The notes beneath the pieces are model-generated. The model saw only the letters and a list, made by a program, of their open reading frames with translations. It was not told the origin of the DNA and ran no database searches. A DNA stretch of 64,000 bases from Tridacna crocea (taxonomy: Eukaryota > Mollusca > Bivalvia > Cardiida > Cardiidae), in assembly GCA_943736015.1 (NCBI GenBank), contig OX031062.1, positions 54,858,962 to 54,922,961 on the forward strand, read 5' to 3'. The position numbers and the translations under genes are program-made. Positions 3,809 to 60,800 of this stretch are shown here, one piece after another (the first letter of the stretch is position 1; every line of letters begins with the position of its first letter).

Positions 3809-3810
3809 AG

Positions 3811-3822: not shown

Positions 3823-3915
3823 GTATGGCATGGTTCTCTGAAGAAACAGGAGTAAGTGACGGTGAATATAATTGGAGAATTGTGTAATTTTACCCAATAG
3901 ATAAGAAAAGTCAAC

Positions 3916-4485
3916 ATGACAACCAGGATTAATCCCCCAACATTTAGCAAAGATATGCTTTATGAACGTTTTAAGCTAGAACTTCTAGCCTGGAAAGAAA
4001 TAACTGACCTAAGACCAGACAAGCAACACTAAGTATTAACTGGAATGAACTATGATAACAAAATAACTTTATATGAGGAAGCAAAGACATCTTTAAAAAA
4101 GTTTAAAGGGTGTGATAGTGATAATAGCAGCAGCAGAGCAGCTGTCAAGCTGGAACCAACTTATCTCACCGAGAATGAGGAAGCCTTTCTTGGTGCTGGT
4201 TGTGTTAAGGGGAACAACTAGGTAAGCAAGGCACAGAAAACCGGGAAGAAACCTGGCAGCGCTGGAAACCATGGAAAGGAGGTCTGGGAGGTCAAACAAT
4301 TTTCAGGTACAGAATATAGAAAGCAAGGATCAAGAGGAGGATACCAACAGACACAATGTTTAACTCGGATCAATCAACCAAGTGACAGAAATAGGAAAAA
4401 TGTTAACCCTTTAGGACCAAATGGTCGTGTATTAACCTGCAAATCTTGTGGATCATACCGCCACTTATTGCCTGCATGCCCAAAT
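3916..4485 (+). pseudogene. copia Gag remnant with CCHC zinc knuckle
   Basis: An ATG at 3916 opens a frame continuous with the protease frame but broken by TAA at 4030 and TAG at 4219. Near the end is a zinc knuckle CKSCGSYRHLLPAC (C-x2-C-x4-H-x4-C, about 4438-4479), the nucleic-acid-binding signature of Gag nucleocapsid. The stretch before the knuckle is rich in K, G and Q, as in copia Gag. At about 190 codons it is shorter than most copia Gags, so an internal deletion near the first stop is possible. No function expected. Confidence 0.75.
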
Positions 4486-5855: not shown

Positions 5856-5993
5856 GACAAATGAAGATGACAAGAAAACTCAATACAGTATAGAAGAAAA
5901 CAAAAATAAGGATAGAAATAAGGAAACAGAATCCCACTCAATATCAGAGGAGGTACCAAGGCTAGATATAGAGGCTACAGAATCCTGTATAAG

Positions 5994-11897: not shown

Positions 11898-11974
11898 ATT
11901 TCTTTACTATCAGTTGTAATTATCTATTATTGCCAATATGACAGCAAATAGATAAAATAATAAATGAATAGATA

Positions 11975-11982
11975 AGTAAATG

Positions 11983-12038
<56 letters not shown>

Positions 12039-12071
12039 GGGAACATGGGTGGGTAGGTGGGTCGGTAGGTT

Positions 12072-12102
<31 letters not shown>

Positions 12103-12195
12103 GGGAACGTGGGTGAGTAGGTGGGTCGGTAGGTAGATAGATAGATAGATAGATGGATAGATGGGAACGTGGGTGGGTAGGTGGGTCGGTAGGTT

Positions 12196-12242
<47 letters not shown>

Positions 12243-12275
12243 GGGAACGTGGGTGGGTAGGTGGGTCGGTAGGTT

Positions 12276-12312
<37 letters not shown>
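11975..12312. repeat. GATA microsatellite with embedded ~85-110 bp minisatellite
   Basis: Blocks of (GATA)n alternate four times with a spacer gggaacgtgggtgggtaggt-gggtcggtagg. Upstream flank (atctattattgccaatatga) is shared with the array at 14228-14610. Long open frames here consist only of repeated Ser-Ile-Tyr-Leu residues. Confidence 0.9.
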
Positions 12313-12557
12313 AAATAAATAAAAAAAAAAAAAAAAAGATATCCGTCAGTGTCGTTTTCAAGCTTTTGATTCTGGAGTAAAAAGTGAAAAGATTGATAGT
12401 GGTATGTACAACGCCCATTGTTTAAATCTTTTACCACATAATAAAAAAAAAAAAACCGAAGAATTGGCTCATTTCTCTTCCACTTTTAACCATTGTGTCG
12501 ACGATGCGGGAAAAACAGTTAGTGGCTTGAAAAAAATATTGTTTGGAGGCTTTATTT

Positions 12558-14080: not shown

Positions 14081-14227
14081 ACTTCATGTTTGTTGTTCAT
14101 CTCCGAACTTTTGTTATATCATCTTCTCTTTATATTTGCCTGTTTATATTTCATTTCTTTATTATCAGTTGTAATCATCTATTATTGCCAATATGACTGC
14201 AAATATATAAAATAATAAATGAATAGA

Positions 14228-14240
14228 TAAGTAAATAAGG

Positions 14241-14277
<37 letters not shown>

Positions 14278-14332
14278 GGATGGATGGATGGATGGATGGA
14301 TCGATCGATCGATCGATCGATCGATCGGTAGG

Positions 14333-14373
<41 letters not shown>

Positions 14374-14400
14374 GGGAACGTGGGTGGGTAGGTTGGTGTG

Positions 14401-14437
<37 letters not shown>

Positions 14438-14492
14438 CCATAGATAGATAGATGGATGGATGGATGGATGGATGGATGGATCGATCGGTAGG

Positions 14493-14541
<49 letters not shown>

Positions 14542-14610
14542 GGGAACGAGGGTGGGTAGGTTGGTGTGTAGGTTGATAGATAGATAGATAGATAGAAAGA
14601 TGAAAAAATA
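14228..14610. repeat. GATA/GGAT/GATC microsatellite with minisatellite spacers
   Basis: (GATA)n blocks alternate with (GGAT)n, a (GATC)n block at about 14301-14327, and the spacer gggaacgtgggtgggtaggt. Its upstream flank at 14158-14228 is nearly the same as that before 11975. Confidence 0.9.
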
Positions 14611-14871
14611 GATAAATAAATAAATAATATGATATACTAATAATTTTAATGTTCTGGAAAATTTTGAATTGACGTTAAATTGGGAACGGCTTTGGTGTAT
14701 GAAACATAATTGACGTAATTACAAAAAGTAATCGTTCATAGTTTGATATGTTTTGGTTATAAGATTTAAAAAAAAACATTGGTTATCGGACTTAAAAAAC
14801 ACCGGGGGGATTCTCTTAAATGATCACCAGTTTCCTACTTTTTTTTGTGAAAGATAACTTAGTTTCTATTA

Positions 14872-36490: not shown

Positions 36491-36577
36491 ATTCCAAAAA
36501 CTGGCCGTTCCAGGGCCTTCTATAAACAATGAGAAGATTTCGAGGACTAAGCATTCTCATCGTGCTTAGTGCCATTT
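36491..36577 (+). CDS. Receptor exon 1: start codon and signal peptide
   Basis: ATG at 36529 opens MRRFRGLSILIVLSAI, continued by the next exon as LLPVTRC. This is a basic n-region and hydrophobic core typical of a secretory signal, with cleavage likely just before Cys23. Donor gtaagta follows 36577. The preceding tatatttcag suggests a non-coding exon further upstream; 36491-36528 would then be 5' UTR. Confidence 0.8.
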
Positions 36578-39500
36578 GTAAGTATATTGTTATACAATAG
36601 ATCAAATATTTAACCCTTGACCACACAGCAAGGCCCGCCCGGGTGGCTCAGTGGTGAGCGTGTTGGACTCATGATCTGGTGGTTGTGAGTTCGATACCCG
36701 GTTGAGGCGAACTTTCTTTCCGGCGTATTTTCGTCTCTCACCTCTGCTGAAGCATGTGAGAAAAGTAGTCGGTGGCTTTGGAAAGAAAGTAGTGTAAGTA
36801 CCGGTGTGAGAAAGTCAGGAAACACGTGCGTCACCGACCGCCATGATATGACCTTAGCTGTTAAAGTGGCATTAAACCCCATTACAACCAACCAACCACA
36901 CAGCAAAATTTTAGACCCAGCTTTATTGAAATTATTTACAGGCGGCATTGCAAATGTTTTCCAAAAGATATTATTCATCTTGGAATAGGTAATAAACATT
37001 GTGGAAAAATTGCTGATTACCAGCATTTTCTCCTTACAGTATTTTAAAAAGATTCTCATTCAGTATCGTTAAAACTTGTGATTGTGAGGTAAAGGGTTTA
37101 AGGGTGAGAGAGCTGACATTTCTCAAACGATTTATAAATTGATAGACTTTACTTTCACGACGGTTGTCCCTGAAACATGCTGAAGGTATCTTTCTAACAC
37201 GATGATTAAGTTGTCAAATGCCCTGTGCCAGATTGCAGTTAACTAAGCTTTTTGGATGAGAATAAGTAGATATATTTCTTTTTCCAAACAATAGTATTAC
37301 TAACTTCTGCAAAACTTTTGAGTCTCGGAATAGCACCAGTTTTAACCGCAGGTGCATCATTTAAAAAAAAGTTTTAGAGATTAGTACCATTGCTTGATAG
37401 AGATCAATGCATCATTTGGTAGCCCTAGGCCTTGTGGATTTGAACTAGAAATTCCCTTGCCCCCATTATCTCCTTCTAGATGGCATTCTACAAATACACA
37501 TCTATCTAATTTTGGCATTCTGTGTACAGAACGGGACTACTTTTCTACGCGACAATCGTTACTTTGAATTTCAAACTAAATTAAACGTCGGTTACTCTAT
37601 AAAACTCTACATGGTGTGATTCATTCAGCTATGATCTGCACTATAGAGAAAACTAGTGCTAAAACAGGCCTGGCTTTTCCTCAAAGGTATTGATAAAAGC
37701 CATTTTCTCCGTTGCCACTTTATAGCGCGTATTATTACAATACCCCCAAATACTGCGGGAGGGGGAAGTGATGCGTAATAGCACACAGGTCGAATCTTCG
37801 AAGAATATGACATGCTCATACAACGCCTTGTTCCCTCCCTCCAATTCATCCTTTTTGTTGCCATTGCAAGTTGGCAACGAGAGCTCCACTTGGAATACGA
37901 CTTTTACATCCAACGCATGATCATAAAAACTCACTGGCTATTGGAACAAGAATAACCAGGTTTAACGTAAAATTTGCCTGTTTTTAGATAAAACGTTCCG
38001 AATCAGAAACACAATTATTTCAATTTATGCGTTTGCGTTTGTCCCATCTATCTGATTTTTCGATTCTATCACTGAAAGTTGGTCGAAGAACTAAACTTCT
38101 CAAAGTGAGAAGGCTGTCATACTAAGTGTCTTCTCTCGAAAACTAAAATCAGTGTGAGGAGATTTGTTTAGGTACATTTTTTTTCCGAATTGAAAAAGAT
38201 ATAATTTTCCACACCAGTTTATTTTTTCGTGTTCGAATATGATTGGTTGATTCTATACAAATAGTTTTGACATCCTTTGCATCAATTTAGGACAGTGCCT
38301 GTGCGTTCTCGGCACAGCTATTCTGTTTGAAAGAGAATAGAGTTTTACAAGCCCAATATCGACAGAAGTCACGGAAATGATTAAGTCGTCGGTTTACTTC
38401 CAAAACCTCGTAACTACAGCTTGTAACAAGCTGCAGTTACGAGGTTTTGGAAGCAAACCGATGAAATATGATGGCATCACTGAGCTATTGCCTGAGAGTA
38501 TTTTTTTTTATTGGATCGACTTGGCGACATCAATAAGTTCGTCCACATATGGTCTGCAACATGCAAAAAGGGGCATTCGGACATTTGCGTAAAGTGTCGT
38601 CTCGGATCAGCCTGCGCCGTCCGCGCAGGCTAATCCGAGACGACACTTTACGACTACATTAGTTTCTTTTGCTACAGTAAACGAAAGCATAACAGAAAAT
38701 TCCATAGACATGGAAAGTGCCGTTTTGGATTAGCCTGAACGGACTGCGCAGGCTGATCCGAGACGACACTTTACGAAAATGTTCGGATGTCCCTTTTCGC
38801 GTGTTGCAAGCCAATTATTATCATATAACTGTAGGTTATATGTCATGGGGGAAAAAGGGGGGGGGGGTGATTCTCCATTCAAACTGAAGAAAACGAAACA
38901 AATTTGCTTGTTCTATTTCTCGTTTGTAACTTTACAATGTCAAACGACAAATTTCTAGACCAGTCTATATCTACATTTAGTAAAGTAATTCAGATTCTAC
39001 TATTGCCTTGATTGGTTTGGCTATTAAAGTTTCTTTTCTTTTGAAGCCAACCGCAATAGTGGCTTATTTTAGATAAAATAAAAAAATCACTTTTAGAAAG
39101 AAGAATTCCAGCTGAATTCCATTTCTTTTCTTTCTAGCACAGGTTTGTTTGTGTTTGGGAGCAAGTGTAATATATTCTTTACTATAACTAAAGATGGATT
39201 TTAATTCGTGTTCTACCATATATTTCAGTTTTACGCATGAAAATGAAATATTAATATATAAAAACAGCTACATTCTTGTTTATCGTCGTGCTTCTATTTT
39301 AAGTACTTCCTGTAACGAGATGTCAGACTGGACTGGAGTTAACCTTTAACGGTGAATCATCAAGTCATCAAGACCCGGAGGCGCTCAATAGCGGATCGGA
39401 TGAAAAGATCAACGGCCGGATGAAGGGTTTATGTCGGGATGGCTGGACCAAAGGTTCGATGAGAGACGTGTCCGGAGAGGACATTCCGATATGTCTTAAA

Positions 39501-42500
39501 ATTAACACACAGGCCCTCACCTGGAATGAAGCAAAGTCAACATGTCGTAAAGATTACGGATTTCTGATGAAGCTGGATTCAACAGCGAAATGGGATGACG
39601 ATGAGCTGTTATCGGTTCTTTTTGAGGAAGGTGAGTAGTCTTTATTACGTATGTATTTAACCCTTCACCTGCTAAGCGCGACTCACTGACAGTTTGCAGA
39701 CAATTCAGATCAACATCAGACTTTCTGTTTCTGCGCATGTCTACTGTAGCGCAATCTCAAAAGTAGTCGTATATTGATGGGTGAGTGCAACACTATTCTA
39801 AGTGCCTGTACAATGTACAGGCACTTAGAATAGTGTTGCACTCACCTATCGATATAGTGTCGTAACGGAAATTTATGAATGTCCCTTTCCGCGTTGTGCA
39901 AACTATATAATCCATGCTTTCACGAAAGGTGTTCTATTGCATTTCTGTGCTAATTTTACCAAAGAAATCATCATAACTTTTACTATGGATTAGAAAATAT
40001 GTTTTTTTTTTCTAAAAACCGTTAAATCATGAGGTAGGCTGGTTCTGAACATGCAGAACATTTAAAGAAAAAGAAGAAAAAACAACTCTAGATTTAGGCC
40101 AGCTTCCGAGGACTGCACAAGCTGACCCGAGTCGATACATCGTGCAGTTGCATTAAGACCTGTTTTTTAACCCATTACCCGACAATCCCTATTTTTGTCG
40201 CCCTTGAGAAAGAAGCCTTTTGAAAACACTGTGGAAAAAGGAGAAAATGCTGGTAACCAGCATTTTCTCCTTTTCCCACAGTGTTTTGTACCCTTTCCAG
40301 AACAAATTTCTATTTTTTAGTCACCTTTATTTTGTCATCTGCAAATGCTTTCAATTTGGACCAGTCTAAAATTTTCTCGTGTGGTAAAGAGTTAAGCAGA
40401 TAACGGAACTTGGTACATACTGGCAGATAACTTTTTCACGAACATATGTATGATTTACTTTCACTTTAACCCTTTACTCCATAGATACTCATTTTTACGC
40501 ACTGCTTGTAGGAGCCTTTGGAAAACATTGTTGTAAAAGGTGAAATTGCTCGTGACGAGCAATTTCACCTTTTGCCACAATGTTTTCTATGCTATCAAAA
40601 GGTGTCATATACACATAAGAAACGGCTTCATCCTTGCTGTTATTTAGGGTCAATTAGAGATACCATAGAAATGTCTTATGGGGTAAAGGGTTAAAAGATA
40701 TACTCAGCAATCTTTTTCGTATATCATTACTGACTTTATGCTACAATGGTGTCTTGTAAGACAAAAAAGAATGTAATAAATACGACGGAAGTATTAGTTT
40801 CATTCGATGCAGACTGTTTATATGAGAGACTTATATTGGATGAAACTCGACAAAACTATTATTTCCAGGTATGACGAAAACCTGGACTGGAGTTCATACA
40901 AAGCATAATCGACTTGTCTGGGACGATCTGATTCCGAGTCAAGTAATGCCAAGCTACCAGTAAGTAAAGTTACATATTGCTTGCTTTTTTTGCATCAAAG
41001 ATTGTGCATAAATATTTCGAAACCTTAGTTACTGTGGTGACTGACATGTCCGCACACCAAAATCTCAACTACCCACACAGACGGATGAGAGCTGGTTTTC
41101 TGTTAATTTTTTCCCCTTATCTTTCAAGTAGGCAGTCTGTAGAGTGTGCAATCTATACACGATGTACATATATATTAAATTCGTTAACAGCCGTATTCTT
41201 TATGGTAATTTCAGATATCAAGCCATATTTGCGACACAAAAAAGACCTGAAACACGATTTCACCTTTTGCCACAATGTTTTCTATGCTATTATAAGGTGT
41301 CAAATACATAAGAAACAGCTTTATCCTTGCTGTTATTTAGGGTCAATTAGAGATACCATAGAAATGCCTTATGGTGTAAAGGGTTAACAATAATTGACTG
41401 GTCTGAAAACATACCTTAGCCAAATTATGAATTTAGGGACGCAAGTCTTCTTTGCTTAATCAGACTAGTTCCATTGGCCTGCAACACGCTAAAAGGAGGC
41501 ATTTGGACATCTGCGTAAAGTGTCGTTTCGGATCAGGCTGCGTGGCCTGCACAGGCTAATCCGAAACGAAACTTTCCGCTCTTATGCAATTTTCTGTTTT
41601 TCAAAAGTCTACTGTAGCACAAAAACTGATGTAGTCGTAGAGTGCTGTCTCATATGGCTTGCAACACACAAAAAGGGGCATTCCGACATTTGCGTAAAGT
41701 GTCGTCTCGGATCAGCCTGCGCAGTCTGCGCAGGCTGATCCGAGACGGCACTTTACGACTACAGTAGATTTTGTGCTAGAGTAGACTTTTGCAAAATAGA
41801 AAATCACATCAGAACGGAAAGTGTCCTTTCGGATTAGCCTGCGCAGACAGCCAAGGCTGATCTGTGACGACACTTTACGCAGACGTCCGAATGTCCTTTT
41901 TCGCGTGTTGAAAGCCATATAAGCCTGGGCGGACTGCGCAGGCCTATCGGAACAAATGTCCACATGCCTCTTTTCGGGTGTTGCAAGCCATTTACAAAAG
42001 CGTATTTGTTCACAGGCATGGTAATAGTAGTATACCCTCACGCCCGTGGAAATGGGACTCTAGAGATATCACTTTGAGATCTCAGTACTGTGGATATATA
42101 GACGTAGATTACGATTCCAGTGACAGAAAGAAACGTGCTTCCGAAGATGACAATATGGACGTTTTAGGAAATTTTGACTTTGCAAGCTTTGGTGAAAGAA
42201 TCTTTGATTCAAATTTTCCCTCAGCACCGAGTCCGGTAATGGATTATCCTCGCACTAGCGCATTTAAATCCATGCTTTCTAGAGCTCAGTTTTCGGATCA
42301 ACTGGCAGAACTACCTAGTTCATCGATCGGTTTGCAAAGTGAACTTCAAATACCCGGAACGGGTCTATCTGATGCAAACATTGAAAGTGGTGGTCTTTCC
42401 GCGACAATCTCACCCAATTTTGAACCAATTTCTTTAAAAGATGCAGAGGAAAACAAAGACAGAATTACAGGACTTGAGGTTATTGATACCATCAATAAGG

Positions 42501-45500
42501 ATATATCCAACCCACTTGAAATGTTGGTCACAACAAAGGACGATGAGGTACAGTTAAAAGATTCATCTGCGTTAGACACGTTAAGAGAACACTTAAATGA
42601 AATGCAGAATATACAAGGTGATGCTGTTTTGTCCGATGGCAATAATAATGTAATGCAAATGCCCGAGAATAAATTGGAAAGTCCTGATTCGTCTGCAAGT
42701 TTCACAACACCATCTCCACTTGAGATGATGGACACCGCTGCTGTAAAGCTATCTGGTGACGAAATAACAACGAAGACAGAAAAATTATCAGTAGAAATTA
42801 AACCAGATATTCATGACAAAAAAATTGATATTGTAGAAGATATCATCAAAACCCCCATGTCCAAAATTGAAGATCAATCAGACCAAAGTGCTTTTTCAGA
42901 CATGAATGGACCAGGCGTTTCTGTGTTTGATGTTTTGGACAAAAATAAAGATATAATGGAAACTATCCATGCTGTGAAACCAATTCTCAAAACTTTTCAA
43001 GAAAACGATCGTACAGAACTTAATGCAGCACAGATTAATGACGATTCGGAATCAATCCAAAAAGGTTTAGATCTTGTTGATAATTCATTGACAACTACTA
43101 AACCTTTTAGTAATACAAAAGATGAAACGGAACTTAATGCAGCACAGATTAATGACGATTCGGAATCAATCCAAAAAAGTTTAGATCTTGTTGATGATTC
43201 ATTGACAACTGCTAAACCTTTTAGTAGTACCAAAGAAGAAACAGACCTGGACATAAATCCAGTTGAAGAAAGTACTACACAACAACAGTTAGAAGTTGTA
43301 GATCATAGCATGATATCTTCAACAGTCGATTCTGACGATGAAGCCTCCGGAAATATGTTTAAAAATCTTTTTAAAACCGACATAGATAACAACGGTAACA
43401 GCAACACAGAAATTGATGGACATACGACACCATCTTTGACATCTTTATTTAGTGTTGACAGTAGTGACAATTTTGAGGAAAAAGATAAACCATGGGAAAA
43501 CATTTTTCAAATTAAAGACTTGGAAAATATCAATGAAAAAGATTCATTAAGTTCTGACGGAGAAAGCATTTCAGGAAAAACTGTCACTTCAACACCTCCA
43601 ATTGAAGAAGACATGGATGAACAGAATGATGTTTTTGATGAAATCAGACAAGACAATTCAAGCATTTTGAATAAACATCACGAAGTCACAAATGATAATT
43701 TAGATGATAATCGTGAATTTGATAAAGAACGAGATACGATAGATAAAGTTTCAGATTTTCAAGAAAATTATCCTGCACACGTCGCAAATAATTCTGAAGG
43801 AACTACAAAAGAAGTTGACGATGTATCTAGTAAAATTGACTTTGAAGCAGGACTTAGTCTATTGGATGATGATAATGACCAGATTGAAAAAGCATTACAA
43901 GAATTCAATGACAATATTGCTTCCACTGGAGACAACACGTCTGATTACAAAGAAGAAGATAAGAGTGACCAAGGAAAATTATCAGAATTTGACGAAACAG
44001 ATGATTCGTTAATCGAGTCAATCAGAGATACACAAAGAGAAGTTCTTGGACTGTTTGATGAAAAGGAAAGCTTAGATAATGATAATTTGCAGTCCGAAAA
44101 TATTGATCACGATCTAAATGACGATCGTATAAAGACTGGTGAAGTTGAAACTGATCAAATTGACGATCTGATTGACACAGAAAAAGATGGCGATGGCATT
44201 TTCGACAGTTTTCTCGATGACGGATCTAGAATTGATGACAGAAAAGAATTTGAGCATTCTGAAAACGAGACATCAGATTCTGAAAAGAAGGAAATAGTTA
44301 ATGCAAAAAGTGACGATGAAAAAGATTTTCAAAATGAAAATGAAGACGATCAAATGGAAAGTGTATCTGAAACAGATAAATTTGGATCTAGAGATGACTT
44401 TGAAGAATTGCAAAATGACAAACATGACGATGAAGTAATTCAGACAAAAGATAGGACTTTCTTAGACATGGAACCGGAAGAATTTGTAGAAAGTGACCAG
44501 GAAAATACTTTCATAGATAAAGAAGCACTTGCAGAGACCGAAAACATAGAACAAGACGATAAAGATGATATTGATAATTTACCTTCAATTAAATTCGGTG
44601 AAAATTTCGAGGAAGAAGCAGAGGAAAATAACGATGATAATGAAATCTCTGATATCAGAGAAGAAATGGACAAAACATCAAGTCTAGGTGAAATGGTCAC
44701 AAAGGAAAAAACAAAAGTTTCTTTGAGACTACCACGTCGTGAGGCCGACTTGGCACTTGGCTCCTGTGAAACAAGACTTCCTTCTGTATGTTACAGCTAT
44801 GAAGTCGAAGTCATGACAGAAGGTAATCCTACTTTAAATACTTAATCCTGTCTAACGCATTTAACAAATGGAAAGCAGAAGGGCCATCTTAACTTTCTTT
44901 AGTCTAATTTCGACTCGATATTTTAATTTTTGTTTTGTTTTGTTTCGAATGGACATGCATAGGCAACCAAAGATTCTTTTTAATTGATTATGTGATTGAT
45001 GTTATGGTGTTAAAGACCATTTTCAACATTTTTTCAGTAATATCGCGGCGGCCAGTCCACCTACCTGTGCTTTCCTGGAATCCCATTTTTGGTTCAAAGC
45101 CACTGGTTGCTTTCCCACATAACCATGTTGGAAACATTGATCGGCGGTGAAAAAGAAATGAGAGGTATTGGCCGAGGCGTAGATTTTAACCCTCATGCTG
45201 ATAAGTGCGACTCACCGACATCTTGCGGACAGTGCAGATCAAGATCAGATTGCACAAATCATGCAGTCTGATCTTGTATCTGTACTGTTCGATAAGCAGA
45301 TATTATTTCCCAAAACATAGCTTTGACAGCCGTTTTTGGGATACTTCTATCGAATTAAAAATTTCATCTTAGTTATTTAGCAGGATAACGGTTAACCAGC
45401 GATCCCCTGTTTTCAAGTCGATCGAGAAAGAGAGCGAAAGAGCCTTATTCAAAGAGTAACTAACATATGTTTCGTTGCAGCATCTACATGCGACGATGGC

Positions 45501-48500
45501 TGGTATGGTCACGTGCTGTTAGACACGTGTTTCAAAATACTTGATCGCAAGATGAGTTACCATCAAGCCGAATATGAATGTAACTCAATGGGTGCCAGAC
45601 TGGTTTTGGGTGACAGCAACTTTCAACGACAGTTTGTTCGGATCGCAATGCAAAAAGATGGCAAAATGGATCTAGGTAACATTTGTTGTATATTTAGATG
45701 GTAAACCTTTTGAGGAAATATGGAAAGTAACACCTCTCATTGTCCCTCAATTTGTCAATACTCTGCCTCGGTATGAATAATGAAGGAGTCTTTATGTATA
45801 TTACAGTGGCTGACGAGACGGTCAACGAAAACCTTGATTGTTGAATAAGATCAAACCCGTGCTATGTGAAAAGCGGGATTAAGGCATTTTCAAAAAAAGT
45901 ATAGACCCAGGTCAGCCTGCGCAGGTCAGCCTGGTTAACAAAAGGCCATTTATTTCGTCTGGTTTAGGACTGAATATAATATCTAAGCAAGGAATATTAT
46001 CATATGTGTACCTACAAAACAGATGTCTTAGTTATAAAGTTGACCACGATGGACCTCTCTCACTCTTTTAGGTTTTAGATCGTTAGTGTTAAACACACGT
46101 ACATGAAATACAAAGGATTCGTATTCCAGACTTGCTTCGACTCACTGACTCAAAATCATTTACTTCGTATACGAGTACGAATTGTTGACAACTATCGGAC
46201 GTTAGTGTTTAGAGTTATTGAAAGTCGGAGGATTACTTAGACAACACTTGCACGCACATCCCTCTAATCATCTAGTCTTGTTAAATGAGCGACTATTATC
46301 AAACACGGTGCTGTAGCAGTTTTGTTGCCATTACTAATTATGATAACAGCCGTCACTGTTCTGTCAACAGCTATAATTGTAAAACTTTAAAAACGAATCG
46401 ATATGCTTAACTGTTGCATACTGCAATAATCGAGATATTTTTATTTACATGTTCTATATTCTTATAAGTGAGTTAATGTAACTTCACAGTAAATAACACT
46501 ACTAGTGATGATAAACATGGTATCGTCATTAGTGACGATATAGTTTTAAAATGTTTGCCGGAACGACTTTTTTCCTTTGCAGCTCATATCGTAACATCCT
46601 TGATAGTTATTAGAATAAAAAGGAGTTTATAGGGAATTTAATAAAGAAGATATTTAGCTTTATCCTCTATATTTTGAAGAGGATTGGCACTTTCCTGGGA
46701 TATGATCACAGTTTTTGTCTTTCTGCAACTTAGGTGAAAAGGTTTGGAAAGAGTCTCAATCACAACGGAAGAATCTATGTAGGTACTTTAGTGAGACAGA
46801 GGTTAATGTTGATATAAGCTGTAATGCAAGACTCGAAGTTGTGTGTGTTAAAGACGCCAGATCGCTATGTGAGTATCAGCTTGAACAACTGTATCGTGTT
46901 TAATACCTTAATAGTTATATTTCGGCGGCCAATGCACCTATCCATATTTTCCTCTCTTGTACCAGTACCTACTCAACACAATTTTCTTGGCTACAATTAT
47001 AGTCTCTAATTGCACACTATTAAAACGATTTTATAACGATATGACATCCAGAACTATCAGATAATGATAATGATAGTTATAATAGTACTAATAATTATAC
47101 CATCGTCAGACTCACAAAGTGATATGACAACGTTTTTTTATGTAGACTTCTGGATTTCATATCGTTAATGGAAAAATTGTTGAAGATTGAAATTTGAAAT
47201 TGTTTTAATAGTATGCAATCGTGCAGTTACTTTGTGCTACATTTTTCACGGGAACTGGAATTACTTTTTGAAGAACAGAAGACGTTGAATAGATCCTTAC
47301 CATTTTTACGGGATATTGGTTATGCCACCATACTAAACGTGTGTTCCGGGTTCCAAACAATTACTTTGACTTAACCGAGACCTTGAAAGAGGCATTCCAA
47401 TTTGCATACAAAAACTAAACAGTGGTTCACCCTCTATGAAGATTCCTTAAATCCTTACGAAGTTTAGTGCTATCAGTCATCAGATTAGGTGCGGTTTTTT
47501 TTTTGCTATTATTTCATACTTTCCTGTAAATCTTGCAGCGGTACACACTGTGTACGACGATCCAGAATGGCCAGGAAATGAGGAGAAAATTGAGTTTTCA
47601 TCCAAACAGACCACTAACATATTAGTGTGCGACTTGACAAACACAGCCTCCGAGTTCCCCGTGCTTTGGTTTAAGGATGGTATCCTAGTTAAAACCGTTG
47701 ACAAATGTAGGTTGTAACACTTTTTATTTTAAAACAGAAAAAGTGGACTTTCCGAATTCAAAGCATTTGAAGACGCAAAATTAAGTCTAGCTCAAAGGTG
47801 AACAATGCCTTTGAGATTTCATATCTACTTATTTTTAGGCAGTTTTCAACCAGTTACTAAACCACATCATCCTTATATAATGAAACTATCATCATTTTTG
47901 TGTCTTCGTGTCAAACGTTGCAGTTGATGGCTGTAAGTTTACATACATTACGATGGATAGAAAATGCATTTCGTGTTTTTTGAAGCCTGAAAAGCAGTCG
48001 CCGTTGTCATTTTTGGTGTCAAATGAGAAAATCCCTTGAGTTTTTCTATCTTTTAAACAAGATATGTTGCATATGTTCTATATTTACACAGCTGAAAAGT
48101 TATACATAGTTTCAAGTTTTCACAGGATGTATCTTTAATTTTCTTTATAAGGTTACTATAATTACTGTGAACTTAGCCTTTCAAGTACAGGTTCAGATAA
48201 CTTGTTTAGAACAGTTTTAAGCATAGATATCTATAGGCTTAATGAACTCAAATGTATATCGCCGGGAAAAAATCCCCGTTTGAGTTACAATGATATTCAA
48301 AAAGGCACATGAGCAATTTTTGGGGTGTCTGATCTATAGTTTTCTTCGAATCTGCAACTGTCACGTTGGATGTAATGGTTTGGATAGGCTATAATTATCT
48401 TTTTCTAGTTATTATTGACCGTAATGTATTCTATTTGAGCCGTTCGTTAGCTGAGACATTTAAAAACAACAGAATTGTATATGTAACAGATACTAAGTCT

Positions 48501-51500
48501 ACAAAACAAGGTTACAGGCCACGCGTAATTCATACACCAGTATTTGCCCTTGACATTATTGTCTTACATCGTACATATACGTGTAAAAACATTTAGAACA
48601 TTCTTTTTTTTCAGATGTAACCAGTGATATTTCCCTCCAACTTGATAGCAACCTTGTTGATGTTTTAAGCCATGTCACAAACGAAAACATTAGCATGCCC
48701 GTTTTACAAGGAAAATATTGGTGTGAAGTCTGGGACCGGAAATCGTTAACACGAAAGCGCTCTAGAGGATATGACGTCAGATATACAGGTAGTATTTATG
48801 TCACCTTCCCCATTTTCACAGTTATATTTTGTTACCACATTTTTCCGAGAGTTTAAGCACTTTTAAACAGAACACTTTTGAAAATATTGTTGGTAAAGGA
48901 GAAAGTATGTTAACCCAGCACTTTCTGTTTTGCCAACATTGTTTCGACCGTCTCAAACAAAATTTTCACAATTTCGGCTACATTCAATTTGTCGTCTTCC
49001 ACATGCTTTCAGTATGGACGAGTCCAAAGGTTTGTTGTTTGGTAAAGACTTGAAAGTTTCAGAGGGAAAAAAGAATATTGGCCAGACCATAGATAAAATT
49101 TTATTATACCGCAAAGAAATTTCTCGTGATCTGATTGGTTAACATGCCGGAAACATATATCATGTTCCCTGGCAAAAACACGTTTCCCTTTTGAGTGCCC
49201 CGTAAACATCACTACACGCGCAACACAACATCCAAAATGGCGACGTCGATCGATCACCAGACTGCACATTTATGCACCAAACTGCACGTTTTAGTGACGT
49301 CACTTTTTAGTGACGTCAGTTTTCATTGAATTGGGGCACACAGAAGGGAATTTCTTTTTCGTACGCATACTAAAATGAAAATTATAAAACAGGAAAATTT
49401 CGCTTAACGGGCTTTGAAAGGGTAAAACTTTGCAGTATAATAAATTCGTTGTACGGTCAGGTGGCAGGGGACTTGGAAACTTGTTCACGGCTGTGGTGAA
49501 TCATGTCGCCACCTCGCCTTCGGCTCGGGGCGACATGATTAATCACAGCCGTGAACAAGTTTCCAAGTCCCCTGCCACCTGACCGTACAACTAATAATGG
49601 TCACTCTTTAAAATAATTATTTCCGATAATTTTCACACCATGATTTTGATCTTTCACATAAAAAAAAAGTATTCTATTCATATCATGCTGTTGACACTTT
49701 CATTTCAAGCTTTTCCCCGTGGCGTACACCCAGCAACTCATTACAGTATTACGTCAAGCGTGAGAAATGAAAGGTAAATTACGTCATATTTCCAAATAGT
49801 TGTGCGGCACAGGTATTTTACCTAGGTAACTAGTGCGCGGGAACAGCTGTTTCAGCTTTCAATTGAAGAGTTACAATATAAAAATCAGTATTTTCACTGG
49901 TTGTAACCATGAGATATCTAAAATTATTTCAGCTAATATTTCTCGATAACCTACCGGAAAGCATGAAATAATGTTTGATAACTCATGATTACTACTATTG
50001 AAAAATACCGGTCTCATTTCTCAGCTCTTTAATTGAGGGCGAAAACACCATTTCCCGTGCACAAGTCACCTACGTAACCAATGCATGCCATTCAACGAGA
50101 TAGAAGTATGATGCAATGTAAGCTTCTCGCGCTTTACCTACTATTGTAATACGTTGCTGTGTGGAGGGGGTACGCATGGTATATTACTGAAAACAACTGG
50201 ATTTTGACTTAAGCATGAAATATATAGACCTTTATTTGTGAAAGATTGAAATTTATTTCATCGAATGAACATCATCGTTAATATTTTCACGAGTAGCCTC
50301 TGCTTCTTAACGTGGGATATAGATATAACAAAGACAATAACTGTGTAGAGCTACTGACGGACAATTGACTATAACAAATTCATGAGCGGCACTCTGGCAT
50401 AAGGGATTAAATACATCTCCGTGACACATTAAACCAAACAAGTTGTCTTATAATAATGGACCAATACAATCAATTTTGTCCAACTTCTAAAAAAATCATA
50501 AGGTTAACTGGTCATTTAACAGGGAGCTATTTGACAAATAGCAAAGATTTCGACCTCAATGAGCCTGTGCAGGCTGATTTGGATTGATACTTTTCGTGTC
50601 CCACTGTGCCATGCTATCAGTTTGCCTTTTGTCAATTTCTATATACATGTAGCATGAATGTTAAGTTTGAAGCCACTCTCTATTATCATTAAAACAATTT
50701 TCGATGCTCTAAACGTATCACCTCTGAGATTGAGCTTATCTTTAATTGAAATGAAATTTAAATGTTTCATTTTAGATGTTATATCATTTCACGGGTCCAT
50801 GGAGCTACTGGGATATACTACCAAGCAAAAAGTGTTGTTCAACATGGTTAACGAGAGATTCGAATCACTAGCACGTACTGAAATGGACTTACAGCGTGTC
50901 TTTCAAGATGTTCTACCCAGGTTACAGCGATATGCTCAAGACATTGTGTCTGTTTATACGTTTGCAGATAATGTCAGGTGAGACCATGTGATATATGGCC
51001 AAGACAGACCTTCTCTTAACCACAGGACGACTCTTAACCATAGGACGAAACAAGACTGACTACAATGGAAAAGAAGCTACGGCATGGACATTGATTTGTT
51101 ACTTATGAAATGCTGATAACTTTGAAATCTTGGTAAATTTAGGTACAGCCTATGAGATTGTACTATTGACCAAACTCCAGATTGAGAAAGTGATTTTGAT
51201 TTCAAAATTGAAAACATTAATTATTCTCAACATAACCTTATGTTCTGGGTACTCATCATAATCGTCTTATAGAGAAGATCCTAATGTGTATCCACAACAT
51301 AGGGTTTGGAAGAATAATAATGGATTTAGAATAAATCACCCCCTCTTATCTGGAGCTCTGATTGACAATATATATCCCTTTGCCAGTTACAATAGAATGT
51401 GACTTAAGATGAAGGTCTGCTTTGTAAAAGCTTCCATTCATTTGTTTTATCAATAGTGTCGTTATGTACTTCCATACCCTCTGTAGTTAAGGTTTTTGAT

Positions 51501-54500
51501 CAGATAAAAGCCTAAAAATGTAGCTCGAATTGAAAGCAAAGCCCAGTTTCTTTTATATACCTCTTCTTCAGGTCCAAACCAAGTGTTGTCGAGTATCACA
51601 CATACTTCACGTTAAACAGAAACTACTCAAAAATAGATGAAGATGTTGTTTACAACCGTCTTAAAGGCTTGCTTAGGTTACAACTTGGTAACAGAAGGTA
51701 TATCTCCAATCTGGCTGGTGGTACACCAATACGTTCCTTCCATACCATGTCACTACAAAGTACAGGTATGTGTCCACTATTGCTGTTTTTCAAAATTTCA
51801 GAAAACTACCCTCCTGCTGATTACAACTTTAATATTGATTCCTTAATGTCCAAAGTACTCACACAATTGATTTAGAATTCACAGGAATTTTTTAACAACA
51901 AACTGACTTGGCATTTGTCTTAGTGCGAATATGTCTCCATTTGACATAAAGCTTTCAGGTCTGTGATAGATAATAAATTATTTTATAGCAATTGACAAAG
52001 AAACTAACATAAGGCTTCTATCTCAGGGTCGTAAAAAGCAGAAATTGTTTAGTAAAGAGTTAAATCCATTTTGAAGGAGCGTGACTCAAGTTCATAGAGA
52101 AAATACAGTTTGTGTTAACCTTGCATTAATTTATGGTACTTTATCAGTAGTTGTGTTAACATGATTTGATTGATTTTTTTCTTTTCTTTTCCTGAAAAGT
52201 TTCCTGTCCAGCAACGACTTTACAAACAAAGACAGACCTATTCGGAAAAACAATACCCCTCACTGCATTTTCATTTCCGAAGGCACTTCTTGGGGAGTTT
52301 GCTAATAGTATCAACAACTGCAGTACGTATCTAACAAAAATCGTTCATTATCTGTAAGTTCTTAAGTTAATATTGATAAAAGAATGCAGAAAATAAATAT
52401 TTGCAAAGAGAGAAATGGAGAGGCGCAGACCTTCCGTTAATTTATCTCTGATTATTCAAGGTAGATAGTTTTATGTCCTTCTTTCATAAATATGACTCCA
52501 TGAAAGTGCTCCAGAGAGTTAATTAAACTATATCTTAACCTTTTCAGGAAGCTGTTGTTTATTCATACATACAATATATTGTCCATCAGCGGGCTGTAGA
52601 GGTCTAAAACTTACATTGAGAAGCAACAAGACAGAAATGTTCCAAATATTTTGATATCTGTAGACTCGTGAGTGCTATACCGTCAAAAGCTCAAAGAACA
52701 ACTATTGATAGGTTTGTAGGAAAAATAAGTCACTGCCTATATCATTCAACAGGTGATAAGAGCAGACTGCCGGCAGGTACTGCAAGATGTCTTGGAGATT
52801 TTCACACTGGTGCATACTGGGGTGAGGTGGTCGCTAATGATTGTACTGACGAGAGCAGTCTGGATGACATTAATCAGGAGTTATGGGGAATATCTCCATT
52901 TACACAGAAGTTAACGCAGATGTCGCAGGTATGAGCATTTCACAATTTGAAAGGACCGGTACACACATGTTTATTAGACTTCTTTATGCCCTAGTAAAAA
53001 TGACAAAACAAGAATATGGACCTTTTTTTGACCTAAAGGAAGTTGAGGTCTTTTGAAAAAACCGAGTCAAAAGTCTTCTTTGAACCAACCTTTCGAAGAC
53101 TACAACATTTCATGTATCTACCGTATTATCAGAGCACTAATAGTTTGTTGAAAGGGAAAGCCATGTCTTCAATATTAATAATTATAGTTTTGGTGTGGTA
53201 GTAAACATCTTTTCGAGTAAGTTCTGTCTTCATGTTGCACATTCTTCAGAGCACATTCTTTCCAAGCCACCAGCTTCTTTCTGAGATGAATATAGTCAAT
53301 AAAACAATGAGCCGTTAGACTGAAAGCAGATATCATGGTTGATCCAACTGAAACCTTTTCATGGGAAATTGGTTTACAACCATTTTAGCTTAAAACCTCA
53401 TTATTCGCAAGCATAATCCACTGGCAAGTAAGATCCGTGATAGCCGGTTCTAAAATTTACTTGGAAAACCCTTGTTCTACTGATTGCTCGTTGTAAAGAT
53501 TCTATTATGTTTTTTACTATTTTAAAATAAATACGCTGAGCCTGGTATTTCAGTAATGATGCCCTAGACTACTAAATAGGACGTTGCAGTGTCAAATCCA
53601 AGATTTGAAGAATCTTTTCCGGGATTGAAAAAAGTCATTGCAAAAGAGTTTTTTACCTCTCTCATTCAAAACTGAAAACTCACCTTAACAAACAAACCAG
53701 AAAATGCCGAAGTACAATGTGAAAAACTAGTAACTATTTGCATTTTGTTTTGCTTTGCAGACTCCATTAAGTTTGAAAACTGTGAAGAACGTGGTTCAAG
53801 AGGTCGCACACATTGCAGATGTTGCTGTAGATTTTACACCATCGGATATCAACAAAATAGCAGATATATTAGATCACTCAACTCAAATTCCAGATCTTCC
53901 ACAACAGGTCTACATTTAACATTTGTGCCATGCGGTGGTGGGGTGTTAATATATCTAAATAAAGCACACAAAGTTTTCGTTTTTAAAGAACCTATGTCAG
54001 CCTGAGCAGACCCGCTCGATACTTTTTCCAGATGTTTTATATACCCTTTTTGGAGAGCACGACCCTGCTTGTATTGACTTTCTGTTCTGTCTTCTTCTCC
54101 ATTTGTTTGAATTAATGTATTATGATGTTTAACCCGTTTCAACACAATCCGATTTCACCAACCCAGAGGAAGTAAGTTGGTAACCAGCATCTTTCCATTT
54201 CTCGTTATTTTGGCCACCTTTGATTTGTCGTCTACAAATGCGTTTAGTGTGAACGAGTATAAACCTTATTGTTTGGTAAAGAGTTGATTTGTAAATATTG
54301 ATAAGATACAGAGCTTTGATACTAACCGTTTACCAAACAAATGCGAAAAAGGAACCAGTATTTTCTCTTGGTTTCTTAACTTTCAAGGACATATGCCATC
54401 TTTTTAGCGATATTTAAAAAAAATCTGAAAACGTATTCACTCATGACCTGTCTCGAGTTTTGTCATTTTGTAAAGATAAAACAAAAAAAGGAAGAAAATC

Positions 54501-57500
54501 TGCCTTATCTGAGATGGGAGGTTGGTTTCCGAATATATATATTTAAATGTCTTGGTGTTTTATGTCGACATTTTTTTTCCTTTCCTTGCATCACATTAGC
54601 AGTATGTAGATTGTGGATAAGCTATAGGGATTTCTTGAATTTATCAGGTCGGTACAGATGTAGTGCGTACAGTTAACAAACTAATGGAAATGGATGAGAG
54701 GAAAGTGCATATGGCTAATCTAGAGACGAAAGCAGCCAACAGGTAAATGTACTGTAACTCGTAACTCTATCGACAATCAAAAGTTCAGTTAGCGCAACAT
54801 TGAAAACTTGTTATCGATTCGGTTCCACTTCGAACTAATTTTTAATTATCTTGAAGTATGCAAGAAGGCCTAGATAAATCGAAAGTCGATCATGCTCACA
54901 GTAAACTGCCACTTTACTTTTTTTGGTTCATATACTTGCAAAAGGCGTTTAAAAACTAAGACTGATCGACACCTTTTAGTTTTCACGCAGTCCCCTTGTT
55001 TCGCTCAAGTAATCTAAGACATGTTCATCAAATCTGACAAAAATGATGGCAAAACTACAAACGTGATTAGAAACGGTTTCTATTTAGCAAACTTAGCAAC
55101 TATTTTCGTAGAATGGTAGTCTCATCTATGTCTAACTCGGTGCACCTGCTCAAATATCATACATTTATAGACCAAACAAAGTTTTTGGTTGGGTTCAATC
55201 TTTTAATTTTCTATGAAACAGTAAGATCTGATACATAAACATAAATCGGAGTCCAATATGACATGTTCAAGTGATTGAAGTATTAGTAATATCTGTGAAA
55301 ATAAAGACTGGCTGGAAAAAATTAACGTGCCAGAGGGAGTGCGTGCACAGTTAGTGGATACTCATTAGGAAATTACGCATACACATCTTTCCTCTAATCA
55401 CATCTCGCAAAGGACAGCACAACAAACATGAAAGACATTAACAAGCATGTATGTACAGTAAAGAAGTGCTAGGACACCGCATTATGAACCCATAGTTAAA
55501 CTTTCAATAGAGTGAGTTGTAAAGTTTTCGTTTTTAAAGAACTGTATAAATTCTAAGCGTGGTGCAAAGAAGATTCTTTGAAATTTCCGAAATTCAGAGT
55601 TTTGCAACTGAAAATAGACGACATTTTGGTAGGAGCTCGCTTCCTCTTCGTAGCTAAAAGTTAACCATTCACAATCCTTTGATAGAAATCAGAGCTTCCA
55701 ACCATTTCTTTTAGCATAGTCAATCGTTCGTTGACTTTGGCATACAAATGGAAGACATTAACAGATAAGAAGCAAATACTTATCAAAGGTTATTTCTCCT
55801 TTTCACACATTGTTTTCAAGAACCGTCTTCACTAGAATTGTATACACTCTTACTATTGAGACAAAATGTCAACGTTTCACCACACAATCACGGGCTTTAT
55901 CGACCCTGAAGAAAATTACACTCTGGATATCAAAGACAGAAATCATTGATTTTGCTACATTTATAATGTCGTCAGCAAATGCATTCAATTACTCGAGTCC
56001 GAAATTTTGTCGTTTGGTAAAGAATTACACCGAACCTGAAAGCAATTTTGAACTGAAAAAGAAAAATTATTTTATATCGCTTTTTTCTCAGAATTCTTCA
56101 ATCCATGGAGCGATTTGCCGACAATGTTAAACTTGACCGACAAGAAAATATAAGAATAGTAGAAGATAACGTTGTTGTGGAGATTTGGGATCTTAAACCA
56201 AGTTCTAGACCGGTTATCGGACTTGCAGCAGAGTCTCGGATTATCAAAGGCATGGAAGAGCCATTCAAAACAGAGAAAATCGCCACTGTCTTTAATTCAT
56301 CCCAGCTGATTGATATAGACGTAGACGCAGCCATTGAACTTCCAAAAGAAGTGTTTGTGCAGCAAGAAAAAGGTATTTATTGCATTTTAGCCATACCCTA
56401 GCTAATAGGGGGTTTACTACATCTCTTTTATGTATAATGCCAAGCAAGTCATTACATAATTAGGGATCCGTAAATCAGTTTTTCACAAAAAAGTGACAGA
56501 ATCATGAAGAAGACCGATCATTCAAAAGGCAGATACACATAGCAAAAGGTTCAGAGTGGTTGTTGGACAAATAGGTTTTGGGATCCATGACTATGTGGTG
56601 ACAAGTATGTATAATGAACTTCACAGATGCAATAAATTCCGTATATCAATAAGATGGAAACAGATCAACGGTAGTGCAGGTAAGTTTAAGTTGATAATTC
56701 AAAAATGATTGTATAACAAGGGACAATGACCACGTTTCATACAGAAAATGTCATTAAAGCGAAAAGTGTCAACCCTAGTCAGCCCGCGCAGTCTGACCAG
56801 GATTGACACTTTTCGCAGTTCCCAGAAGGTCCATTTTTGCGTGATGGATCAAATTTACTTACAAGTTGGATTTTTGCAGGTGAAAGTATCGGGAATCGAT
56901 TAACAATGGTTGTCTACAGAAACAGTAAACTGTTCGATGCAGCTGTGAGACACGACATCGTGGGAACAACAGGAAACGATCAACACTATGAAAACCTTAA
57001 CAGTTATATCATATCAGCCAGCATAGCAGGAAAAAGAATAACTGGACTAAAAGACAGTGTGAAGACCATCTTCCGACCTCTGAAGGTATGAGAGTACACA
57101 AAGGCAAATCTTTGTCGGCATGACCCTGGGAACGAATTTTGATTGGCATTCTTTAATTTAAAGGCAAGAAATATGTAGACTGAGTGTGGAAATGGTGAAT
57201 ACACAGGTTCTTGCGTATTCACCTTTTCAATATTAATTTCATAATTTCTTGTGTTATTTGCCAAAAAATTGCCAAGTTAGTCCTCGAGTTAGATACCCTG
57301 GAGCTGGTGTCAACTTTGAGATTTTTCATTGGCCCGCACTTTAGGCACGAGTACTGGTGCAGTTCCCAGGAAGCAGAATCGAGAGAGGTTAGTATAAGTT
57401 GTAAGAACTTGTTTCTGGGTCGATGCAAAATAAATATGTTTAAACTTAATACTGTAACCATCTCGGATTCTATCAATTTTTAAGACTAGAAACCAGAACC

Positions 57501-57833
57501 GTCTCACCTAGCCAGAGCAGTGAACAACAAGACAAACTGATTGGTAGGTTCGGTCCAAACGAAATTCTTAGAAACGAGCGGATTTATCTTATATATAACT
57601 TTGGCGGTATAGAGGATGAAATCCATTTCATATTGAATTGCCCATTTTATCATTATTTGGATTTATAACTCATACGGTCCGTTCTTAATTACCTCTATAA
57701 ATTATAAAAAATTAGTATAGGTTCATTACGAAAATGGTCGGTGTTCATCTTCTTTGAGAAAGATTTTTAATTTATTTGCTATATAATGTTTGCTTATGTA
57801 TTATGGCTGTGTACATGTGTACGTGTCTGAATA

Positions 57834-57872
<39 letters not shown>

Positions 57873-60800
57873 AAAAGTTTTGATAATGTGTCTGTCAAAT
57901 GACTCCAAACCGTAACGCTTTTTTCATTTTATCATATAAACGTCGTTCTGCATAAAGTCTGTTTTGACCTCATTTTTTTGGCAGGAGAGTGATGACTCGA
58001 GGAAATGTGTATGGTGGGACTTCAAACAAAATGAGTTTAAAGGCGGTTGGTCCAGTGTGGGTTGTCGGTATGACGGGAAGATCAATGGAAGAGACGTGTG
58101 TTTATGTGATCATTTAACCAACTTTGCTGTTTTACTGGTTAGTTCGATCAAAGTTTGTCGTAACCCTTTACCATAAAATTTAGAGTTTTAAAGGCAATAA
58201 AAATGAAAATTTTGAAAATATTGTGTGACAAGGACAAAATCGTGGTAACCATCATTTTCTCATCAATTTCCACAATATTTGCTAATCAAGCAAGGTCAAA
58301 TCGTTTGAAAAACATTTGAATTGTCGTTTGGTATTGGTTTCTCAACACAGTCCCGAGTTTCCTGTGGAAGAAACCACTTAAAAAATTGTGTGTTTTTTTC
58401 TACAAGGTTTACTATCGTTTCAAGACTATTCAAACAAAAGGAGTCACGTTTGATTACCATAATAAATACATTTACTATTTAACACGTTTAATTTATTGTC
58501 TGTTAATACTCTGGGTTTGGACTTCTCCAAAGTTTGGCGTTTGGGAAATAGCAACTTGATTCAGATTGAATTACCACCTTTCTTCATGATTTTCGTTTTT
58601 TTTCAAAGGATTTCTACGGACAGTCGAAGCCAATAGATGAAGACCACGAACTTTCCCTCAGCATCATCACTGTCATTGGATTAAGTTTCTCAATACTAGG
58701 CCTGTCCTTGACTATTATTTCCTATATTTTCTTCAGGTACAGATTTTATTTTTTTATTTTCAACCTTGGTCATAAAGTTTCTTTTTTTTGCTTATTTTTG
58801 TCCCTTTTTTGGGGCGTGAGGGGGGGAAGGGAACAGAATGATTGACAATATCACTTTCGAACTCTTCGACAAAATCAAAATATTTGCATTGAAAGGAAAA
58901 GTGGAGCAAATGTGTAAAGCTATATTATTCATGCTAAAAATGCATTAAAAGATAACATTATAATATGTAGTTGTGTTAAAATGGGTAAAAATATTATTAA
59001 CTTTTCTGAAGATAAGTAGAGCAGCTTGATGAGTTACAATGAAAATTTCAAGGTATAATATTTGTAAAAGAAAAACTAAAAAACTTGAAAATAAATAATG
59101 TGCTAATGTGATACTTTTGTTCTTATTTCAGAAAACTGCGACAAGGCAGAGCTCAACAAACATTATTCAACCTTTCCCTCGCACTTTTATTGTCGATGAT
59201 GATATTTTTGGTGGGCATTAAGCAGACACACAATCACTATATATGTCTCGTGGTGGCGGTGCTGCTGCACTATTTTATTCTGGTATCATTTATGTGGATG
59301 TTGATGGAAGCCATGTTGCAGTATCTGACCTTTGTGAAGATTTTGGGAACCTATATCACACGATTTACGATGAAAACGGTTTTACCAGCATGGGGTGAGA
59401 CTTTTTTGGATTTAATTCTAAGGCTGCTAAGTGCGACTCTCTGACCTTTTGCAGACAGTGTAGATCACGATCAGACTGCACAGAACGTGCAGTCTGATCA
59501 TGGATCTACACTGTCCGATAAGGAAAAATTGTTCCCCAAAACATAACTTTAAAATAGTAATACTTGGGTTTTTACTGTCGAATTTAAAATTTCACATTTC
59601 AGTTATTCAGCAGGATAAGGGTTAAATTTTGTTGATGATGGTTTCTTTTTATATTTGCATAAATAAACTGGTTTTCTAACACGTTCTGTTCGAGGTGATT
59701 CAAGCTTTAAGTTTATTGGATAAGAATTCTTCTAGTTATTACATTACAGCGTGAACAGTTCAAAAGTTCCATTTTCAAATCCAGTTAAACGTTTACCACA
59801 CAATTCGGACTTTAAACGATCTTGAGGGAGAAACCTTTTGAAAACATTGTGCGAAAAGCAGTAAATGCAGGTGTCCAGTATTTTCTCCTTTTCCCACAAT
59901 GTTTTCTACCTTATCAAAGACAAATTGCTTGCACCATTTGAGCCACATTAAAATTGTCGTCTGCAAATGCTTTCAATTTTGAACAAGTCTAAAATTTTGT
60001 CTTTTGGTAAAGGGTTAACCATACAGTCCAGAGTTTTGACCATCCTTAGGAATTAACCTTGTGGAAACATCTTAGAAAAGGAGAAAGTGTTGTTCACCAG
60101 ATTTTTCTCCTATTTTGTCTCGATTTTGTACACTTTCAAAGAAATTTTCCGCCATTTCAATTACATTTGCTAATGCCGTTCATTTTCAATTTGAACAAAT
60201 CTAGAATTAACCTTGTGGGAGTATCATAGGAAAGGAGAACATGTTGCTCACCAGCTTTTTCTCCTTTTTCTCCTTTTCTTCTAGATTTTCTACACTTTCA
60301 AAGAAATTATCCATCATTTCAATTACATTTGCTAATGCTTTTCATTTTCAATTTGAACAAGTCTAAAATATAATCGTTTGGTAAAGACTTAAGCTATGCA
60401 GCTTTTTAAAACATAGTCAAACCCAGTAGCTCAATGGGTATCGTGTAAAACCGGAAACCAAGGGATCAATGGTTGGTTTTCCTGCTTGATCAGTTCCTTC
60501 TGACGATTAACGACTGCTATATAGGGACAATATTCGTTCCTCTGTCACAGCTTAACATCTCTATTACATCCTTATTACACTGTTTATTTAGGAAAACAGA
60601 CACTTGCTTGGAAAGAATCCTGTGCAAAACAATGGTTGAAGAGCTACAAGGATGGCATTATGGATATATTTGCCCCCGCTAATATTACTGAAATATTATT
60701 TAATTTTTGAAGATGTGTTGGACCCCAAGTTCAGCTTAATAACAAAATAAGTCACTAACCCTGATAGAACAAAAACCTTCTATGTACTCTTGAAGTCACA

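Follow-up and report, generated by a model that had tools for sequence, protein, structure and literature searches.

C-type lectin-like domains (CTLDs) share a receptor with a GAIN/GPS region in polycystin-1 and in adhesion G-protein-coupled receptors (GPCRs) of other invertebrates, and we know of no insert in any of these that is comparable to the one reported here. A long acidic stretch is paired with a CTLD in the eosinophil major basic protein precursor, and in proinsulin a connecting segment is cut out from between disulfide-held chains, which requires two cuts. In human and mouse GPR126 (ADGRG6), furin cuts within the SEA domain, at a site that is absent in zebrafish, and SEA and GAIN are named as the only domains known to the authors that are proteolysed yet still associated (PMC6954182, excerpts). 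In MET and RON, furin cuts a surface loop of the extracellular Sema domain, RON being a disulfide-linked heterodimer, and this maturation is required for signalling (PMC3405059, excerpts). Here, we describe a receptor gene in a 64,000-nt stretch of the Tridacna crocea genome (contig OX031062.1, positions 54,858,962 to 54,922,961; hereafter, the window), the outermost CTLD of which is interrupted by a giant cysteine-free insert. We consider it probable that this adhesion GPCR is cut once, at a conserved site, to give a two-chain, disulfide-held lectin that carries its disordered insert as a free tail.

The gene lies on the plus strand, runs from position 36529 to beyond the window end and spans more than 26 kb. 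Read outwards from exon 4, it has 21 exons in the window (Table 1); all introns between them are GT–AG and the phases join without a stop across 2060 residues. A further exon downstream of the window (L002:688-913) extends the reading frame across the final membrane helices. The encoded protein comprises, in order, a signal peptide, CTLD1 with the insert, CTLD2, an Ig-like domain, SEA-like and HormR-like regions, a GAIN region with the GPS motif and a seven-transmembrane (7TM) domain. Because Pfam matches to GPS (E = 4.5e-13) and 7tm_2 (E = 1.2e-32) lie next to each other, the gene is, by its domain signature, an adhesion GPCR, which bears out the adhesion-type receptor proposed in an earlier reading of the window's letters (the original prediction).

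Exon 4, flanked by AG and GT and matching exons 3 and 5 in phase, supplies both inner cysteines of CTLD1, Cys181 and Cys1073, as well as its last cysteine, Cys1081, at the residues and coordinates at which they had been predicted. The inner cysteines are 892 residues apart and enclose 891 residues with zero cysteines; the left one is invariant in a 12-row alignment (C194 of P0013). The equivalent pair in CTLD2 of the same protein is separated by 14 residues. The block between the basic motifs at the two edges of the insert, 863 residues without cysteine, has a net charge of −152 and is rich in Asp (14.8%), Glu (11.6%), Ser (10.7%) and Asn (7.3%), as expected of the long acidic insert that had been proposed. 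The stop-free frame in exon 4 extends over 977 codons, a length beyond chance because the longest frame in 300 Markov-1 simulations of the exon, read in the three forward frames, had 149 codons. In the assembly to which the window belongs (1.05 Gb), the block matches a single place. Within it, a recent in-frame 114-nt tandem duplication provides a hint as to how the insert has grown. By eye, the introns flanking this exon contain repeated palindromic elements of the type GCCTGCGCAG...GGCTGATCCGAGACGACACTTTACG (at about 38560-38800 and 41480-41960).

Three protein searches, which reached relatives sharing 5-residue words at 0.55–1.75 times the query length and, in two of the three, scored the best 7988 and 7969 candidates, yielded 21 proteins (P0001–P0021). 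Fifteen of them span both inner cysteines and, together with the window protein, form a 16-sequence set whose named members are clams, a mussel, scallops, an ark shell, freshwater mussels and the gastropods Elysia and Haliotis; P0011 and P0012 begin within the insert, and P0014, P0016, P0017 and P0018 were excluded from the counts as distant. A cysteine-free insert of 454–1443 residues is present in 16/16 spanning sequences, including bivalves and the two gastropods; the cysteine-free stretches of the distant P0014 and P0016 are no longer than 252 residues. A tree of the region after the insert (16 rows, Haliotis and P0019 left out) agrees with the clades. In it, the window groups with Mercenaria, Mactra, Mya, P0002 and P0004 (98/100), a placement with heterodont clams. 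Scallops, mussels, ark shell and P0011 form another group (95/93), as do the freshwater mussels (100/100), and Elysia sits on a long branch whose placement is unsure. A profile with the insert deleted, used to seek an insert-free relative among the 7988 best candidates, gave six matches, all with the insert, four of them already known and two new (Elysia and Haliotis). Oysters were not named among the matches of the three protein searches, which represent the best-scored candidates.

A retained intron, or part of another gene, might give rise to such a block, which lies within one exon and for which Pfam gave no match. We regard an annotation artefact of this kind as extremely improbable: the same layout recurs in proteins that were predicted independently in many species, and in P0002 (2109 residues) and P0004 (2116 residues), whose contigs measure 6980 and 6935 bases. 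As these contigs are too short for introns, compared with the more than 26 kb of the window gene, we take both proteins as spliced sequence; in these relatives they speak, indirectly, against transcripts that skip most of exon 4, which the original prediction had named as a possible refutation. In P0019, which closely resembles the Mytilus entry P0015, the block lies by eye in one frame that continues into intron-like sequence on both sides, and it also looks like one exon. The recurrence of the layout confirms the insert as a real part of the predicted protein rather than an artefact.

When the insert was left out, the Lectin_C profile was matched in full in five of the five proteins tested (105–106 of 107 profile positions, 28.4–48.7 bits, cut-off 22.6 bits); in a control with scrambled ends, the match reached profile position 90 at most. 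These matches show that both ends of exon 4 complete one predicted CTLD around the insert. An AlphaFold model of an abalone relative places the two ends in one CTLD and leaves the insert disordered, so CTLD1 adopts in this model the lectin-domain fold that the original prediction expected the exon 4 ends to complete. The sequence of one insert-deleted relative, compared with those of solved structures, matched two CTLD proteins, both over the left half only. Several results count against the two-chain reading of which this fold is a part. P0021 alone fell below the Lectin_C cut-off. The AlphaFold model represents the abalone relative, not the window protein, and is weak overall, with a mean predicted local distance difference test score (pLDDT) of 46.2, a predicted template-modelling score (pTM) of 0.33 and 14 sequences; the left-half blocks 131-160 and 171-180 scored only 44–58. 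Its Foldseek superposition is loose, with a best E value of 4.9e-05, a target TM-score of at most 0.57 and root mean square deviations of 4.1–11.5 among the 50 matches listed.

The EPN/QPD and WND-type motifs, which are named from calcium-dependent sugar-binding C-type lectins, are absent from CTLD1 in 15/15 sequences, and a sugar-binding lectin was rejected on this ground. Because CTLD1 is without the usual calcium and sugar motifs, it appears likelier to bind a protein or a surface than a sugar.

The left edge of the insert carries its most strictly kept feature. RKKR in the window is a good furin-type site, and RX[KR]R occurs among insert residues 1–80 in 16/16 sequences and beyond residue 80 in 0/16; shuffled inserts have it in the first 80 residues in 0.25–2.7% of cases. 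The motif starts 11–20 residues past the left cysteine (about 60 in Elysia), is sometimes present in several copies and is frequently followed by Ser and acidic residues. In the 12-sequence alignment, the K and R of this site are the sole invariant columns of the insert. With both gastropods included, the first R of the site is still invariant, and at least 90% of the sequences share its last R as well as a single Pro elsewhere in the insert. In Elysia P0020, an arginine run (SVRRRRRRRRST) about 60 residues after the left cysteine stands in place of the usual RXKR site. It is unlikely, in our view, that the insert is never cut and forms a very long disordered loop on an intact single-chain CTLD. 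The case for cleavage comes from sequence, and the CTLD completes equally well with the loop in place; however, an uncut loop would leave unexplained a furin-type motif at the same edge of every spanning sequence, often trailed by Ser and acidic residues, within an insert that the alignment finds otherwise variable.

The original prediction placed furin-type sites at both edges and proposed that, with both cut, the insert would leave as a free peptide, as in proinsulin. Comparison with relatives upheld the insert and its left site and not the right one. RLPRR in the window holds a minimal RXXR only (RLPR, with Pro at P2). Within the last 60 residues, RX[KR]R is found in 0/18 sequences and plain RXXR in 4/18, namely RLPR in the window and, unlike it, REFR in three Mytilus-type entries, and the last 30 insert residues vary except for the strand preceding the cysteine. 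Cleavage at both edges, with the block departing as a free acidic protein, thus appears to depend on a motif found in this one species, and we judge it quite unlikely. The presence of RLPRR in the window would nonetheless suit such a release, as would a [KR]R pair that occurs, at shifting positions, in the last 60 residues of 10 of the 18 sequences; these right ends count against a single cut, and a second one could possibly take place in single species. A neuropeptide-type precursor of multiple peptides was rejected, as there are only 0–5 [KR]R pairs per insert outside the first 80 residues in 15 of the 16 sequences.

The 100 residues behind the left site form a conserved module. Their mean majority identity (calculated over six rows, the window and P0001–P0005) is 0.587, compared with 0.361 for the rest of the insert, where the best 100-residue stretch reaches 0.448. 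The left half of CTLD1 stands at 0.661 and CTLD2 at 0.676. The core of the module, SDQLAELP..GLQS..QIPGTG.SDANIQ.GGL, is partly present in freshwater mussels. Net charge varies far more: across the 16 sequences the insert ranges from −278 (Ylistrum) through −44 and −45 (freshwater mussels) to −15 (Haliotis, in which Ser and Thr make up 42%). The acidity stressed in the original prediction therefore holds for the window and, judged across these relatives, is not the conserved property of the insert. There is a modest chance that the insert is a spacer without a specific role, drifting in a tolerant loop, the furin cut merely easing strain on folding or trafficking. Such drift would account for the poorly conserved body, the wide spread in length and charge and the recent duplication; it accounts less well for an insert that is long in all 16 spanning sequences, both gastropods included, and for a module whose conservation comes near that of the CTLD1 left half.

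From these features we infer the following arrangement, with one cut and a retained tail. The insert would sit in the hairpin between the inner cysteines of the outermost CTLD, and a furin-like convertase would cut once, in the secretory pathway, at the conserved left basic site, opening the front edge of the loop. The two standard CTLD disulfides (Cys181–Cys1073 and the outer pair ending at Cys1081) would hold CTLD1 as two chains. Because only the left site is conserved, and hence a single cut is predicted, the insert would not be released: its C-terminal end would stay on the chain running to CTLD2 and the membrane, and the insert would become a free disordered N-terminal tail of several hundred residues, headed by the conserved module. 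This tail, flexible and mostly negative, may set reach as well as steric and charge effects around the lectin head; the module could be presented to a partner, and a pull on the head could be relayed to the GAIN/GPS region and the 7TM domain. Two further points tell against this arrangement: by eye, the module has no counterpart in scallops or abalone, and the gastropod sequences come from incomplete gene models in which no 7TM domain was matched. More speculatively, and with a low probability, the module on the exposed, tethered tail might serve as a built-in ligand or as a docking arm that engages the receptor, a neighbour, or a mineral or matrix surface; in that case the protease would convert the outermost domain from a closed loop into an armed two-chain form.

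Table 1 Features of the receptor gene in the window
Feature	Position	Strand	Basis
Exon 1: start codon and signal peptide (MRRFRGLSILIVLSAI...)	36529..36577	+	Gene model; hydrophobic N-terminus, residues 3-21, mean hydropathy 1.69
Exon 2: signal peptide end and N-terminal part of CTLD1	39304..39630	+	Lectin_C
Exon 3: CTLD1 middle (WTGVH...LVWDD)	40869..40959	+	Gene model, Lectin_C
Exon 4: end of CTLD1 left half, 891-residue insert, last part of CTLD1	42016..44822	+	Gene model
Left inner cysteine of CTLD1, Cys181	42089..42091	+	In QYCGYID (starts 42083)
RKKR, furin-type site, left edge of insert	42125..42136	+	RX[KR]R in 16/16 sequences
Conserved module, would-be new N-terminus, residues 197-296 (ASEDDNMD...SDQLAELP..GLQSELQIPGTGLSDANIESGGLS)	42137..42436	+	
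Poorly conserved Cys-free acidic insert body, residues 297-1050	42437..44698	+	
In-frame 114-nt tandem duplication within insert, copies 92% identical	43003..43230	+	
RLPRR, right-hand basic motif, not conserved	44726..44740	+	
Right inner cysteine of CTLD1, Cys1073	44765..44767	+	In GSCETRLPSVC (starts 44759); 12-row alignment
Last cysteine of CTLD1, Cys1081	44789..44791	+	In GSCETRLPSVC
Exons 5 (45481-45675) and 6 (46734-46868): CTLD2, insert-free	45481..46868	+	Gene model
Exons 7 (47539-47706) and 8 (48615-48788): Ig-like domain	47539..48788	+	By eye; no Pfam match
Exons 9-15: SEA-like and HormR-like regions, start of GAIN region	50776..56372	+	By eye
Exons 16-17: GAIN end with GPS motif CDHLTNFAVLL	56880..58137	+	Pfam GPS
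Exons 18-21: 7TM domain to window end	58609..63263	+	Pfam 7tm_2, profile 2-213 of 250

The remaining domains vary in how clearly they are recognized. Exon 2 by itself gives a weak Lectin_C match (E = 0.029), as does CTLD2 (E = 0.073 and 0.083, below the cut-off), and Pfam gave no match for the Ig-like, SEA-like, HormR-like and GAIN-start regions of the window protein; in the relative P0020, a match to GPR128_GAIN_subdomA lies slightly under the cut-off. The GPS motif of the window contains the HLT triplet. An extra exon at 56627-56679, between exons 15 and 16, was dropped because it breaks the frame; exon 15 joins exon 16 directly. This segment has splice-like borders and reads CNKFRISIRWKQINGSAG in one frame, which resembles GAIN strand sequence, and the GAIN part of the gene model may lack a short exon. 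Elsewhere in the window, pieces of a Copia-type retroelement occupy 4222-7384 on the plus strand, with an RVT_2 reverse transcriptase in 5922-6932 (E = 1.5e-26) and, by eye, a zinc-knuckle-like stretch in 4222-5277; Pfam gave no match there or in 6923-7384. Simple-repeat arrays at 11913-12485 and 14168-14718 read YLSIYLSI on the minus strand in several frames. A few kilobases downstream of the last helix exon (L002, about 3700-7200), frame pieces of a LINE-like reverse transcriptase can be seen by eye.

Compared with the known systems, the window receptor resembles GPR126 in being an adhesion GPCR that combines a GPS motif and a 7TM domain with a furin-type site located within a folded domain of its extracellular part. 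It differs in that GPR126 is cut in SEA, with no disulfide across the cut named in the excerpts of PMC6954182, whereas here the domain is a CTLD with predicted disulfides and a giant insert, and the site is present in 16/16 sequences. With MET and RON it shares a predicted furin cut in a loop of a folded domain that would yield a disulfide-linked two-chain receptor; unlike in the window receptor, the Met loop is short (9 residues in the excerpts of PMC3405059) and there is no long tail, and the domain and receptor class are different. An open-licence literature search found no title describing this receptor, and in the first 300,000 of 412,533 characters of a 2026 adhesion-GPCR review (PMC13197933) 'furin' and 'mollus' occur 0 times, while 'convertase' appears a single time, in the title of a cited work on BAI1, a further adhesion GPCR with extra convertase cutting. 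The split lectin head with its tail appears to be a genuine architecture of this receptor class, one for which we found no description in the open-licence literature. It also departs from the other precursors introduced above: the eosinophil major basic protein precursor has its acidic stretch outside the fold, in an N-terminal propeptide that is removed, and the second site that proinsulin-like excision would need is not conserved in the window receptor family.

If the proposed arrangement is correct, an adhesion-GPCR recognition domain would be kept as two disulfide-joined chains with a giant disordered tail across bivalves and two gastropods, and the CTLD would become one of the few adhesion-GPCR domains that stay associated after cleavage. 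It would also show the extent of insertion that a CTLD hairpin tolerates and provide a clear test of the effect of a disordered tail on an adhesive receptor. Should the tail in addition act as a tethered element, this adhesion GPCR would have two such elements made by proteolysis, the other being the GPS Stachel. The case also shows that long low-complexity blocks predicted in mollusc genes are not always spurious and can have a strictly conserved protease site at their edge.

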